Position numbers and translations under genes: made by a program. DNA of 40,100 nt from Oscillospiraceae bacterium. Lineage in GTDB: Bacteria > Bacillota > Clostridia > Oscillospirales > Ruminococcaceae. Below are positions 3,658 through 29,252 of this stretch, in pieces. The first letter of the stretch is position 1; each line of letters starts with the position of its first letter. The stretch is from the NCBI GenBank assembly GCA_017468365.1, contig JAFUIS010000016.1, positions 1-40,100 on the forward strand, written 5' to 3'. The notes under the pieces are model-generated. The model did no database searches. It saw nothing but the letters and a program-made list of their open reading frames with translations, and was not told the DNA's origin.

Positions 3658-5442
3658 TCATTTCAGCATTGAATCAAACGGGCGGTAAAAGCTCTTTTTG
3701 CCGTAAGTTTCAATGGTCTGGCGAATTTGTTTGTTTATCCATTCCACTTCTTCTTTAAGCTCGTTTGCACTCATTCGAAGAACGCCGTTTCTCACCGCCG
3801 CCACCTGGATAAGGTTATCGGAAGTGGCAACTTTTACGTTGTAGTTTTTTCCGATATCCTGGATAAGCTTTTCGATATACATATCTCCGGTCTCGTTTTC
3901 CTTGGTATAGGCAACGTGGATTCCATGATAGTCGGATTTTTCACCGTAGTTTCCTTTTACCTTGTAACCGTCGAAAACGAGCACCAGTTCACATTTCGTA
4001 TATCCGCGGTAGTTGCTTAAAACGTCCATAAGGATATGGCGGGCAGCATCAAGGTTGTCCTCTGCAATTTTGTTGAGCTCTTCCCAGCCGAAGATGATAT
4101 TGTATCCGTCAACGATAAGGTAATCCTTTTTCTTTTGCGGAACGGATTTATATTCCTTCGGGCGGTCCATCACCGCTTCGGAATACTGTTTTCTTCGAAT
4201 GGGGCCGAATTCGCGCTCCATTATCGCTTCAAGTTCTTTTTCATCTATGCTGAAATTGCGGCGGAACACCCTTACGTTCGGAATAAGAAGAACGCCGTTT
4301 CCCGCTTCAAAATCCAATCCGCTGGAAACGTGCATATGCTTTTCAACTTCGTTCCATTTGACGGTAACCCCCGCACCGTGAGAACAGAAGACCGAATCCG
4401 GCGTGTTTTCTATATCTGCACAAGGGTCGTATGCGGTTTCGGCTATCACGCTTTCCGCATTGTGACAAGGTGAATATCCGTCGGAAAAACAAACCAGTTT
4501 TCCCCTTCCGTGTGTATAGGAAAGAACGTCTTTAAGATAAGAACGCATCGTCGAAACCGGCGCGCGTCCGGTTATTTCTACCATATCCCCTTTTGTTTCG
4601 GGCGAAGAAAAGGTCCCTTCCATTTCGCGGATATCGTTTATCGCCCTTCCTATCTGTTCCGAAGGCACTTCAAGCCGGAAGGCATAATACGGCTCAAGAA
4701 GAACGCTTTTCGCCTTCATAAGTCCCTGGCGAAGTGCTCTGTAAGTTGCCTGGCGGAAGTCGCCGCCTTCGGTGTGTTTGACGTGGGCACGACCTGCAAC
4801 AAGGGTAACTTTCATATCCGTCACAGGAGAACCGGTGAGCACTCCCAGATGAGTTTTTTCTTCAAGGTGAGTAAGAATAAGCCTTTGCCAGTTGCGGTCA
4901 AGAACGTCCTCACTGCATCTTGTTTCAAAGTGAAGTCCGCTTCCGGGTTCACCCGGTTCAAGAATAAGGTGGACTTCCGCATAGTGGCGAAGCGGTTCAA
5001 AATGTCCCACACCTTCGACCGGTTCCGAAATCGTTTCGCGATAGATTATCTTTCCGCTGTCAAGCCCAATTTCAACGCCGAAACGGTCAAGTACCATGCT
5101 TTTGAGGATCTCTTCCTGAATTTCACCCATAAGGCAGGCGTAAATTCCTTTAAGCTGCTCGTTCCAGATTATATTTAGCTGAGGGTCTTCATCCTCAAGC
5201 TGTTTTAGCTTCGGCATAAACTGTGCCGGGCTCAATCCTTCCGGAAGAATTATTCTATAGGTCAGGACAGGTTCCAGAATCGGCTCAAATCCGCCCTCTT
5301 CAAAACCAAGTCCCTGGCCGGGATAGGTTTTTGAAAATCCCAAAACCGCGACAACGCTTCCCTGAGGTGCTTCGTCAATTGGTTCAAACTTCGCACCGGA
5401 GTATATTCTCAAAATGTTTGCTTTTTCTTCAATTTTTTCCAA
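3658..5442 (-). CDS. C-terminal part of TetM-like translational GTPase fused to a NYN (YacP/Rae1-like) RNase domain
   Basis: This is the same reading frame as the gene portion at 5452-6252, separated only by one UAA (5454-5452); the first possible initiator after it is a TTG at 5442 without a convincing SD. If the UAA is read as an amino acid the whole protein is 864 aa from the GTG at 6252. This part holds the rest of EF-G-like domain II, domains III-V (domain IV with the GGDFRQATYRALRQGL region near residues 225-240) and, from about residue 440, a NYN domain: DYLIVDGYNIIFGW, an LVLVFDGYKVKG strand and the KVATSDNLIQ acidic-patch strand. NYN/YacP domains are metal-dependent RNases; B. subtilis Rae1 cuts mRNA at the ribosome. 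Inference: a ribosome-docking GTPase carrying an RNase. Confidence 0.85.
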   Translation of the reverse strand: MEKIEEKANILRIYSGAKFEPIDEAPQGSVVAVLGFSKTYPGQGLGFEEGGFEPILEPVLTYRIILPEGLSPAQFMPKLKQLEDEDPQLNIIWNEQLKGIYACLMGEIQEEILKSMVLDRFGVEIGLDSGKIIYRETISEPVEGVGHFEPLRHYAEVHLILEPGEPGSGLHFETRCSEDVLDRNWQRLILTHLEEKTHLGVLTGSPVTDMKVTLVAGRAHVKHTEGGDFRQATYRALRQGLMKAKSVLLEPYYAFRLEVPSEQIGRAINDIREMEGTFSSPETKGDMVEITGRAPVSTMRSYLKDVLSYTHGRGKLVCFSDGYSPCHNAESVIAETAYDPCADIENTPDSVFCSHGAGVTVKWNEVEKHMHVSSGLDFEAGNGVLLIPNVRVFRRNFSIDEKELEAIMEREFGPIRRKQYSEAVMDRPKEYKSVPQKKKDYLIVDGYNIIFGWEELNKIAEDNLDAARHILMDVLSNYRGYTKCELVLVFDGYKVKGNYGEKSDYHGIHVAYTKENETGDMYIEKLIQDIGKNYNVKVATSDNLIQVAAVRNGVLRMSANELKEEVEWINKQIRQTIETYGKKSFYRPFDSMLK

Positions 5443-25574: not shown

Positions 25575-26189
25575 ATGAACAATAAAAAATCCGGTTCAAG
25601 AACTATGCTCATGTCGATTTTGATGAGCGCACCTGGTCCGCTTATAATCGGACTTGGTCTTATCGTCGGAAAAAGTTCCACCCAGATTTCCGATTTTGTG
25701 CGAAGAAGCGCCGAACTTCTCGGAATCATCATGGCGTTCATAGTTTATAAAATCACCACAAAAGACGGAGTCACCGACACCGCGCGAAAAGAACGCCTTG
25801 AACGGCTTTCCAATATTTTTGTGGGAGCCATGATGTGTGTCGGCGGTCTTCTCATGCTTTGGGTCACTTTTACTTCGAGCAGCACTGAAAAAGGAAATGC
25901 TGTTCCCGGCCTTGTCATTGCTTTGCTCGGCGTTGTTGCCAACACTCTTTTCTGGATAAAATACAGCAAACTCAACAAAGCGGAACCCAACGCCATAATC
26001 GCCGTTCAAGCCCGCCTTTACAGAGCCAAAAGCCTTGTGGACTGCTGTGTTTCCATCGCCCTTTTATCGGTCGTATTGTTCCCGGCTTCTGAAATTTCAT
26101 TCTATTTTGACTTTCTCGGTTCCGTTGTCGTTGCGGCTTATCTCGTTTGGTGCGGAATAAAAACAATTCGTGAAAGAATGGCCGGATGA
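25575..26189 (+). CDS. cation-efflux (CDF)-like membrane protein, no C-terminal domain
   Basis: 204 aa, six hydrophobic segments, starting immediately after the stop codon of the previous gene with its SD inside that gene. The TM layout and the A-K-S-L-V-D-C-C-V-S segment (about 153-162) with F-D-F-L-G-S-V-V-V-A at the end resemble the cation diffusion facilitator transmembrane domain, but the usual cytoplasmic C-terminal domain is missing and the metal-site HxxxD pattern is not complete. CDF similarity is from memory and moderate. Coupling to the CTP-dependent kinase-like gene hints at a membrane-lipid role instead of metal export, which is inference. Confidence 0.65.
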   Translation: MNNKKSGSRTMLMSILMSAPGPLIIGLGLIVGKSSTQISDFVRRSAELLGIIMAFIVYKITTKDGVTDTARKERLERLSNIFVGAMMCVGGLLMLWVTFTSSSTEKGNAVPGLVIALLGVVANTLFWIKYSKLNKAEPNAIIAVQARLYRAKSLVDCCVSIALLSVVLFPASEISFYFDFLGSVVVAAYLVWCGIKTIRERMAG

Positions 26190-26198
26190 CTTATTTTC

Positions 26199-26227
26199 TT
26201 GCAGATTGTCATTAATTATGTTATTAT
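26199..26227 (+). promoter_or_regulatory. sigma-A promoter of the ARH-ART-like operon
   Basis: TTGCAG (26199-26204), a 17-nt spacer and TATTAT (26222-26227), 35 nt before the ATG at 26262. It gives the two-gene unit its own transcript. Confidence 0.6.
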
Positions 26228-26261
26228 ATAGTTTAGTTTAATTTTGACCGGAGGACTTAAA

Positions 26262-27464
26262 ATGATTGGTGCAATAATCGGCGATATCGCCGGAAGCATA
26301 TATGAATTCAACAACATCAAAACCACCGATTTTCCCATAATTACCGATGATTGCTTTTTCACCGACGATACCGTAATGACCTTCGCCGTTGCCGAAGCTC
26401 TTATCGCCGGAAACCGCGATGAAGCAAAAACCGAAAAAGCTATGGTAAAATCCATGAAAAAATACGGAAAGATCTATCCCGATGCCGGTTACGGCGGAAG
26501 ATTCAGCCAGTGGCTTGCTTCTGCCGACCCCAAACCCTACGGAAGCTTCGGAAACGGAAGCGCAATGCGCGTTTCCCCCGTTGCATGGTTCTTCCACAGC
26601 CTTGAAAAAGTCGAAAGATTTGCCGAAATAAGCGCAAAAGTTACCCACGACCACGAAGAAGGTATCAAAGGCGCAAAAGCCACCGCCGCAGCAATTTTCC
26701 TTGCAAGAAACGGCAGACCCAAGGACTATATCAAACGCTATATCGAGCTTAAATACAGATACGATTTCACCAAGACCCTTGATGAGATCCGCCCTGTCTA
26801 TCAGTTTGACGAAACCTGCCAGGGCACTGTTCCGGTGGCTCTTCAGGTTTTCTTCGAGTCAGAAAGCTTTGAAGACACCCTTCGCAAAGCAATTTCCATG
26901 GGCGGCGACAGCGACACCCTTGCCGCAATTGCCTGTTCCGTTGCGGAAGGTTTTTATCCCGTTCCTGCAGAGATAAAGGAAAAAGCCCTTGCAAAACTTG
27001 ATAAAAAACTTTTGAGCATGCTCAAAAAATGGAATGACGACCTCAGCGTTTCTTCCAATCCTTTTGAGCACCGTGACGTCATGCTCTATCTCGACTATAT
27101 GCTCAAAAACCCCCGTACCCCCAGAAAAACCATTCACCATGCGGACAGCAACCAGGATTACGTCGTTCCGGAATACAGTGAAACCATGTTCAACTTCATC
27201 CGTGATGCGGTCGCTTCCGAAAGATTCCGCTCCGATTATGCCGAGATACTTGCAAAACACAATATCCGCAGCCACCAGGACATGGTCTGCGAGGTCTGCG
27301 ACGCTTCCGAAGTTCTTCTTGACGCAATGCTCACCGTTATTATCAGCGGCGAAAGAGTAAAACCCGGCAACGTTGCCTGGGCGGCAGAAGACGGAATCCT
27401 CGGCGATATTCTCTATTATATCCGCAAAAGACAGGAAGAAGATTTAGAAGAATATCAGGAATAA
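26262..27464 (+). CDS. ADP-ribosylglycohydrolase (DraG/ARH family) with C-terminal DUF6508-like domain
   Basis: 400 aa; the ATG at 26262 follows CGGAGG by 7 nt. The ARH domain (1 to about 250) removes ADP-ribose from proteins or small molecules using two Mg2+ ions. All metal ligands are visible: GDIAGS (7-12), TDDT (34-37), the D-A-G-Y-G-G-R-F segment (74-81), GNGSAMR (97-103), THDHEEG (128-134) and MGGDSDTLA (213-221). Residues about 270-400 form an extra domain whose M-L-Y-L-D-Y-M start and V-I-I-S-G-E-R-x-x-x-G-x-x-A-W-A-A-E-D-G end match my memory of DUF6508. It is followed after 2 nt by an ART-like gene, suggesting an ADP-ribosylation and removal pair. Confidence 0.9.
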   Translation: MIGAIIGDIAGSIYEFNNIKTTDFPIITDDCFFTDDTVMTFAVAEALIAGNRDEAKTEKAMVKSMKKYGKIYPDAGYGGRFSQWLASADPKPYGSFGNGSAMRVSPVAWFFHSLEKVERFAEISAKVTHDHEEGIKGAKATAAAIFLARNGRPKDYIKRYIELKYRYDFTKTLDEIRPVYQFDETCQGTVPVALQVFFESESFEDTLRKAISMGGDSDTLAAIACSVAEGFYPVPAEIKEKALAKLDKKLLSMLKKWNDDLSVSSNPFEHRDVMLYLDYMLKNPRTPRKTIHHADSNQDYVVPEYSETMFNFIRDAVASERFRSDYAEILAKHNIRSHQDMVCEVCDASEVLLDAMLTVIISGERVKPGNVAWAAEDGILGDILYYIRKRQEEDLEEYQE

Positions 27465-27466
27465 AA

Positions 27467-28057
27467 ATGAAACTTTATCATATCAGCGATACCCTTAAAC
27501 TCGGAGAAACCCTGTCTCAGGACTATAAAAACAACCTTGAACTTGTGGTCCCTTTTGTCAAGGCCCTTGAAAAAAGCGAAGATTGTTTTTACGGAATGAT
27601 CCTCAATGCAAAACTTATGAAAAGCGTTTTCGGAAAATTCGGTATGCGTGATATGCAGACCAACTATGTAAAATGGGCGACCGAAGGAATTTTTGAATAC
27701 GTCAGAAAAACCGAGTTTCCCGAAAGTTACAGCCGTTTGCTCAGCAATTATTTTTATGACAATGTTGCCGACATAAAACGCCTTTTTGAAGTTGATTGGA
27801 ATATGAAAGAAAAACCCGAAAGGTTCGATTTTCACGTTTATGAAATCGAGGTCGAAGACGATTTTCCTCAAAAACGCGATATGCTTCTTTTTGACGAAGC
27901 CTTCGATGCCATGTGGGAAAGCGACGATTACCGTACCGCTTTTGACTGCGCCCGAAGATATTTTTCCGGCGAAGGCACCGCTGAACCCGTTTGGGAAATC
28001 ATGAGCGACAAAACCGCAACCGCAATAAAAGATATTACGCATTGTCTTTATGAATAA
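27467..28057 (+). CDS. DUF2441-like protein, possible ADP-ribosyltransferase
   Basis: 196 aa, starting 2 nt after the ARH stop; no separate SD, so translation is probably coupled. The start M-K-L-Y-H5-I-S-D-T-L-K-L-G resembles the first strand of H-Y-E-type ADP-ribosyltransferases and DUF2441 proteins. Other matching blocks are F-P-E-S-Y-S-R-L-L-S-N-Y-F-Y-D (84-98), a V-Y-E-I-E-V strand (124-129), C-A-R-R-Y-F-S-G-E (161-169) and E177-I-M-S-x-x-T-A in the expected catalytic-Glu position. Function by analogy: transfers ADP-ribose from NAD+ to an unknown target, reversed by the ARH. The family link is from memory and needs structural checking; a non-enzymatic binding partner of the ARH is the alternative. 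Confidence 0.6.
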   Translation: MKLYHISDTLKLGETLSQDYKNNLELVVPFVKALEKSEDCFYGMILNAKLMKSVFGKFGMRDMQTNYVKWATEGIFEYVRKTEFPESYSRLLSNYFYDNVADIKRLFEVDWNMKEKPERFDFHVYEIEVEDDFPQKRDMLLFDEAFDAMWESDDYRTAFDCARRYFSGEGTAEPVWEIMSDKTATAIKDITHCLYE

Positions 28058-28060
28058 CAA

Positions 28061-28093
28061 AAAACTCCGCAGAAAATTCTGCGGAGTTTTTTT
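28061..28093. terminator. bidirectional Rho-independent terminator
   Basis: AAAACTCCGCAGAA, short loop, TTCTGCGGAGTTTT plus T-runs on both sides. It ends the ARH-ART-like operon and the convergent MFS gene. Confidence 0.92.
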
Positions 28094-29252
28094 ATTCTTT
28101 TATTCTGTTCAAACGTTCCATAACAAAAGTCATCGTCACCAAAAGTGCGCCAAGATAAAAAGGCAGTATTCCTGCGGAAACGTGATTTGCAAGAATTCCG
28201 AAAAGCGGCGGCATAAAACAGCTTCCGATATATGCACAGGCCATCTGAACTCCGATTATCGCCTGGGATTTGTCTGCTCCGAAATGTCCGGGAGTGGAAT
28301 GGATTATACAGGGATATACCGGCGCACAGCCGAGACCCGCAAGTACGATTCCCGCCATGGAAACCTTTTCTCCAAGCGGAAGAAGCATTGCCAGAACGCC
28401 GAGCGCAATAATTGCGCTTCCGAGTCGAATCATATTCTTATCGCTGAGCTTTGCAGCGATAAAACCGCTTGCCGCTCTTCCAACGGTTATTCCGGTGTAA
28501 AACAAAGTGGCAAGACCCGCGGCTGTTTCTTCCGAAACGCCGAACTGCATAACAAGATAGCTGCTTGCCCAAAGTCCTGCGGTGCTTTCCAAAGCGCAGT
28601 AACAGAAGAATGCGGTCATTATCTCTTTCGCGCCCGGAATGGCAAAAATTTCTTTTATCGAAAGAGGTTTTTTGCTTTGGTGTTCCTCTTCACCGTTTTT
28701 TTCCTCTTTCCAAAGCGGAAGAGTAAGGAACAGAACCGCCGTCAGCGCTATCTGAACTGTTCCTACCCAGCAATATCCCAGATTCCATCCGCCTTTTGTC
28801 ATTGACGCCGCAAGAATATAAGGTCCGGCGGAAGCGCCTATTCCCCACATGCAGTGCAGCCAGCTCATGTGGCGGCTGGAATAATGTATTGCGGCATAGT
28901 TGTTTATCGCCGCGTCAACCCCGCCTGCGCCAAGACCATAAGGCACCGCAATAATGCAGAGCATTATGAATGAATCGCTTACCGAAAAACCGAAAAGCGC
29001 CGCCGCAGTCGTTGCAACACTTATGGCGGTGACTTTTCCGGTACCCAGAAGTTTCGTCATCCTTTCGGAAAAAAGGCTTGAAACGATGGTGCCCATACAA
29101 ATTATCATCGAAATTATTCCCGCATAAGAAACCGGAACACCGAATTCCGTTTGCATGGTCGGCCACGAACCTCCCAGCAAAGCATCCGGCAAACCAAGAC
29201 TTATAAACGATATGTATATAATAGCAAGAAGCAGATTTGCCATTTGCTTCAC
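28092..29252 (-). CDS. major facilitator superfamily (MFS) transporter
   Basis: 386 aa, about twelve TM helices in two halves joined by a charged loop (E-E-K-N-G-E-E-E-H-Q-S-K-K near residues 203-215). The first half starts I-S-L-G-L-P-D-A-L-L-G-G-S-W-P, a pattern seen in sugar-type and FucP-like MFS proteins; the second half has G-I-T-V-G-R-A-A-S-G-F and L-G-C-A-P-V-Y-P. Proton-coupled import or export of an unknown small molecule at the cytoplasmic membrane. It is divergent from an XRE-TPR regulator gene at 29420, so that protein may control it. The SD AAGGGG lies 7 nt before the ATG; -10 TATAAT at 29279-29274. Confidence 0.88.
   Translation of the reverse strand: MKQMANLLLAIIYISFISLGLPDALLGGSWPTMQTEFGVPVSYAGIISMIICMGTIVSSLFSERMTKLLGTGKVTAISVATTAAALFGFSVSDSFIMLCIIAVPYGLGAGGVDAAINNYAAIHYSSRHMSWLHCMWGIGASAGPYILAASMTKGGWNLGYCWVGTVQIALTAVLFLTLPLWKEEKNGEEEHQSKKPLSIKEIFAIPGAKEIMTAFFCYCALESTAGLWASSYLVMQFGVSEETAAGLATLFYTGITVGRAASGFIAAKLSDKNMIRLGSAIIALGVLAMLLPLGEKVSMAGIVLAGLGCAPVYPCIIHSTPGHFGADKSQAIIGVQMACAYIGSCFMPPLFGILANHVSAGILPFYLGALLVTMTFVMERLNRIKE

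Follow-up and report, generated by a model that had tools for sequence, protein, structure and literature searches.

Positions 26262–28057 of a 40,100-nucleotide stretch (hereafter the window) of contig JAFUIS010000016.1, from the assembly GCA_017468365.1 of a gut-dwelling Oscillospiraceae bacterium, carry two forward-strand genes whose products are predicted to have opposite activities. The first (26262–27464) encodes an ADP-ribosylglycohydrolase (ARH) of 400 amino acids (aa), whose C-terminal part, residues 301–390 (27162–27431, same strand), resembles the DUF6508 domain. The second (27467–28057), which follows after a gap of 2 nt, encodes a 196-aa protein with a predicted ADP-ribosyltransferase (ART) fold of a divergent, DUF2441-like kind. 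An initial annotation of this DNA had noted the intact ARH, the 2-nt gap and, in the 196-aa protein, the residues Y4-H5-I6-S7, S89-R-L-L-S93 and E177, all of which were confirmed. It had also described the pair as an isolated two-gene unit with its own promoter and a strong terminator, acting as a reversible modification switch or a toxin-antitoxin-like pair. The terminator was borne out: a terminator-like hairpin of 15 pairs, found on both strands, lies at 28059–28092 and is shared, ending both the ART-like gene and a convergent MFS gene (28092–29252). A promoter of its own is unproven, because a scan of 26100–28200 for sigma-70-type promoters gave 0 sites (mean of 2.7 in shuffles) and the nearest same-strand upstream gene ends 72 bp before the ARH. 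This upstream gene, together with the rarity of the pairing among relatives, is at odds with an isolated unit. By position, the ART-like gene and the ARH may share one transcript.

The 196-aa protein by itself scored 18.4 bits against DUF2441 (PF10386), below the Pfam cut-off of 25. At the level of the family, the assignment made in the initial annotation was borne out: all 16 members scanned matched PF10386 at E ≤ 1 (best 2.7e-5). Profile-profile comparison by hhalign with a DUF2441 alignment made from three of five loci (L050 and L054 being left out) plus L020 gave a probability of 94.6 and E = 6.8e-8. As L020 is a DUF2441-type protein found by the family's own profile, the comparison was repeated without it, and the family still matched the three PF10386 proteins with a probability of 92.1 and E = 6.4e-7. 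We therefore use the name DUF2441-like on the strength of profile homology, although the window protein lies below the Pfam cut-off. Pfam places DUF2441 in the ART clan, for which an H-Y-[EDQ] clade has been defined (PMC7955679); BC2332-like proteins are filed in SCOP d.166 (PMC3000352), and template matching has linked the structure 2aua to ART catalytic sites (PMC3024214).

The predicted structure of the 196-aa protein matched 2aua (DUF2441/BC2332, SCOP d.166.1.6) well and over its whole length and several other ARTs weakly, upholding the earlier guess of an ART fold. The two proteins share an N-terminal YH, an FPxxxSR block and a late conserved Glu, whereas their sequence identity is 16–19%. 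In 17 of 17 family sequences (43–82% identity to the window protein), H5, Y95 and E177 are invariant. In the model, H5 (codon 27479–27481) is the predicted NAD-binding His on the first strand (residues 2–7), Y95 (27749–27751) the predicted triad Tyr on strand 94–97 and E177 (27995–27997) the predicted catalytic Glu on strand 176–180, where it aligns with the conserved Glu of DUF2441; all three codons are on the forward strand. The initial annotation had placed the NAD-binding and catalytic sites at YHIS, SRLLS and E177. Conservation agrees with this for H5 and E177, but the triad Tyr is likely to be Y95, on the third strand, rather than the SRLLS block itself, of which S89 is a Cys in L019. 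At the Y95 position, four aligned DUF2441-type proteins have Y, F, W or C. Taken together, the model and the conservation suggest that the 196-aa protein has an ART fold with an H-Y-[EDQ] triad, and that H5, Y95 and E177 would form one active site.

Two accounts of what such a protein might do bear on these residues. It is highly improbable, in our view, that it serves as a non-catalytic ART-fold sensor binding NAD or a nucleotide: the invariance of the three residues down to 43% identity argues against this, even if the available text of the literature searched on the names DUF2441 and BC2332 yielded no measured activity. Somewhat unlikely, though conceivable, is an Arr-like enzyme whose acceptor is a small molecule (an antibiotic, xenobiotic or metabolite), its gene travelling as accessory cargo with those for acetyltransferases and the like; this is a version of the reading favoured below, with the kind of acceptor named. 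Arr, the rifamycin ADP-ribosyltransferase (2hw2, 9iaf), is likewise small for an ART and has a triad of His, Tyr and an acidic residue (His19, Tyr49 and Asp84 in Arr-ms; PMC13246000), and its structural match to the 196-aa protein is weak.

The ARH belongs to PF03747 (E = 4.2e-34; 119 bits, Pfam cut-off 26.2). It contains D8, E15, T34-D35-D36, T128-H129 and D216-x-D218-T219, all ten residues named here being invariant in 10 aligned ARH orthologues, and its TDDT and GGDxDT motifs, which are metal-site motifs, align with an ARH3 chain. E15 appears to be the counterpart of Glu41 in ARH3, which has been described along with the metal site (PMC7050489), and the conserved TH motif is also on record (PMC9503650). 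Scores against the DraG and Tri1 equivalog models lay far below the cut-offs (TIGR02662, 58.1 bits, cut-off 337.05; NF041672, 36.7 bits, cut-off 490).

The extra C-terminal DUF6508 domain of the initial annotation could be upheld for the orthologues, not for the window protein by itself. Residues 301–390 matched DUF6508 (PF20118) with E = 0.016 and 15.5 bits, below the Pfam cut-off of 23.6; 8 of the 10 aligned orthologues matched at E ≤ 1, the strongest at 5.7e-5. When the genus ARH tails were made into a profile, it recovered 9 of 20 fetched DUF6508 loci (best E = 1e-10). On these sequence comparisons, the DUF6508-like nature of the tail is weak but real. A structure model of the ARH, for which the window and L002 supplied one sequence each, reached a pLDDT of 43.3 and was discarded; we claim no fold for the tail. 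PF20118 is present in 19 of 391 genomes of the class, at 22 places, of which the 20 mentioned were fetched. At five of these (L085, L086, L089, L093 and L102) DUF6508 lies within an ARH reading frame, as in the window, but unlike the window none of the five has a DUF2441-like gene within ~1.5 kb, nor does any other of the 20 loci examined. The tail is therefore not evidence for a DUF2441-like partner.

How often the two genes adjoin was counted from both sides. Relatives of the ART-like gene were found via exact peptide patterns, 10 of 29 matching stretches being confirmed; the resulting 17 distinct loci (window, L002–L011, L013–L017 and L019; the contig of L012 has the length and content of that of L002, and the two were counted once) are therefore a lower bound, biased to close relatives. 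An ARH was found in the flanks of 2 of the 17 (window and L002), the flanks reaching up to 6 kb at L002–L011 and at most 1.5 kb elsewhere. The ARH profile used combined 10 genus sequences, taken over their first 262 columns, with 3 of 7 further ones; a separate comparison of L001–L018 gave the same result. From the ARH side, an ART-like gene follows the ARH at 2 of 14 loci of the genus (window and L029). In eight (L022, L023, L025, L026, L027, L028, L030 and L032) the downstream position is held by a gene for a SnoaL-like protein of 124–131 aa; at two (L024 and L033) the convergent MFS gene comes directly after the ARH, L031 meets a contig end and L034 has a different context. Four of the eight SnoaL-like proteins were scanned with Pfam (L025, 1.1e-25; L032 and L026, 6e-4, below the cut-off; L022, no SnoaL match), and the label of L022 and the four unscanned proteins rests on similarity judged by eye. 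Among 47 ARH loci, an ART-like gene lies within ~1.5 kb at the window and L029 only. These 47 include the 14 genus loci and comprise 15 genus rows (one a fragment), 7 from ART-bearing genomes and 25 from the wider family, the last drawn from 32 matches beyond the genus; a few were cut by contig ends. No conserved linkage of a two-gene ART/ARH module or toxin-antitoxin pair was found. Rare adjacency is the outcome that the initial annotation had named as speaking against its coupling idea.

The ARH itself is close to universal in the genus, being present in 14 of 15 genomes, including 9 of 9 of high quality. A single-protein search detected close relatives of the window ARH but overlooked the PF03747 genes counted below; among 12 genomes it found such a relative only in that of L002, and the other 11 were ten ART-bearing genomes (that of L005 being labelled Erysipelotrichaceae) and that of L020. 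Any PF03747 gene was present in 6 of the 10 other ART-bearing genomes, compared with 67 of 194 genomes of the family (p = 0.17; the sample is 70 of 197 before removal of three listed genus genomes).

The relationships among the ART-like proteins give a similar picture. In a 17-row tree the window protein grouped with those of L002 and L003 (support 95/89), and with that of L004 added (100/99), while the fork joining window and L002 was weak (86/79). Neither L003 nor L004 has an ARH beside its ART-like gene. The genus copies L013–L017 fall outside the window group, although two of them, L013 and L017, share a wider, unstarred set of nine with it. G009, whose ARH is the nearest of all (92%), carries a SnoaL-like gene behind that ARH and has its ART copy, a distant one, at another place. 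Between window and L002, identity is 83% for the ART and 87% for the ARH, with dN 0.107 and dS 1.34 for the former and 0.082 and 1.01 for the latter (dN/dS ~0.08 each); both genes are under purifying selection. These data fit an arrival of the ART without the ARH; the transfer, its direction and its date would follow from this reading, with loss in other lineages as the alternative. As to copy number, G006 has two full ART-like copies (L012 and L017) in different contexts, and G009 has, besides one full copy (L015), a partial match interrupted by stop codons (L018).

We consider it probable that the locus holds a core ARH beside an accessory DUF2441-like ART, the two being neighbours here and not a conserved module; the fold claim for the 196-aa protein stands and the module claim does not. 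According to this reading, the 196-aa protein would be a small, probably cytoplasmic ART-fold enzyme from a divergent DUF2441-like branch, in which H5 and Y95 would hold NAD+ and E177 would transfer ADP-ribose to some acceptor. Its gene would be accessory, found in many contexts, and would have come into a variable slot directly behind the genus-core ARH. The ARH, judging from its family, would be a metal-dependent hydrolase in its own right, taking ADP-ribose off cellular substrates, and its DUF6508-like tail may recognise the substrate. As a shared transcript is possible by position, the ARH could reverse what the ART does; nothing in these data shows that the two genes evolved as a pair.

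The contrary view, that of the initial annotation, takes the two genes for a dedicated system, either a reversible switch or a toxin-antidote pair, in which the ART modifies a target and the adjacent ARH-DUF6508 protein specifically reverses the modification. The opposite predicted activities, the 2-nt spacing, the shared terminator and the retention of the pairing in two genus genomes at the above identities speak for it, and a precedent exists in DraT-DraG, where an ADP-ribosyltransferase is likewise found beside an ADP-ribosyl glycohydrolase (ARG); PMC9503650 names DraG as the ARG partner of an ART. Unlike in DraT-DraG, the pairing is rare among the window's relatives, and the window ARH is not a DraG by score. 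With the pairing seen at 2 of the 14 ARH loci in the genus and at 2 of the 17 ART-like loci, a close ARH relative missing from 10 of 10 other ART-bearing genomes searched, any PF03747 gene missing from 4 of these 10, and the SnoaL-like gene in the slot of G009, we regard a dedicated switch or antidote as quite unlikely. Several points nevertheless weigh against the favoured reading. The gap between the genes is 2 nt in one paired genome and 18 nt in the other, and this close spacing, with purifying selection on both, makes a functional link in these genomes possible. It is also possible that the pairing is old and was followed by many losses. ART and PF03747 genes show no clear co-occurrence in trans, though there may be a weak association. 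As to the fold, VIA Z values to ARTs other than 2aua were 4.0–5.7, and an unrelated chain scored 5.6.

On the other side of the ARH, a DUF952 gene lies within ~1.5 kb upstream at 9 of 14 genus loci, and in seven of these a NUDIX domain is in the same frame; the DUF952 profile, which came from three proteins of the genus, may overlook distant members. Pfam domains of this neighbour were checked in L002, L022 and L033, giving NUDIX-DUF952 fusions at L022:507–1382, L033:556–1419 and L002:3049–3900; DUF952 belongs to the ART clan. Ten of the 15 genomes of the genus contain PF06108, nine of them upstream of the ARH. In G004 (C20:21619–26131), the sole DUF952 gene lies ~3.6 kb from the ART-like gene on the same strand and not near the ARH. 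No DUF952 was found in the window's genome, and none of the 25 ARH loci contributed by the wider family had a match to the genus-made profile nearby. L029 has both the upstream DUF952 gene and the downstream DUF2441-like ART. One could imagine ARH-DUF6508 as a fixed hub around which ART-clan partners rotate, DUF952 upstream and DUF2441-like downstream, with the tail as a common adaptor so that one hydrolase reverses several transferases; we think this unlikely. The DUF952-ARH proximity is explained equally well by one inherited arrangement as by function. Elsewhere, an ARG has been described between two peptide-ligase genes (PMC4431377).

Carriage of the ART-like gene by viruses or plasmids was considered and found unsupported by sequence searches. 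In viral contigs no relative was found with either the protein or the alignment as query, the latter giving 77 pattern-matching stretches of which none was confirmed; phages and plasmids held no sequence relative of the protein. In a viral structure library, two entries matched the model of 27467–28057 (E = 4.2e-9 and 8.4e-6), one of them a Gordonia phage protein; as both are at E < 0.001, distant phage relatives are likely. PADLOC-DB defence models at E ≤ 0.1 gave 0 families for either the ARH or the 196-aa protein.

Reading of the neighbourhoods by eye gave four further observations. GNAT genes were noticed near ART-like genes. In L019 (2220–3480) the ART-like gene is followed by several small ORFs whose leaders resemble one another and end in Gly-Gly, like precursors of secreted peptides. 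At L005:4343–6328 the ART-like gene stands between a LytTR response regulator and an apparent sensor kinase, as if inserted in a two-component operon. In L003, a gene at 3970–4773, three places upstream of the ART-like one, encodes a 267-aa protein with a VHST stretch and no Pfam match, possibly itself ART-like.

These results correct a tempting functional coupling: two enzymes of opposite predicted activity are encoded 2 nt apart, yet their relatives carry the second gene mostly elsewhere. They also present the DUF2441-like proteins, whose activity we did not find measured in the available text of the literature searched, as a branch of the ART fold with a clear predicted triad that can be tested. 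For the ARH-DUF6508 protein, the NUDIX-DUF952 neighbour, commoner in its genus, is a stronger candidate for a functional link than the DUF2441-like ART.
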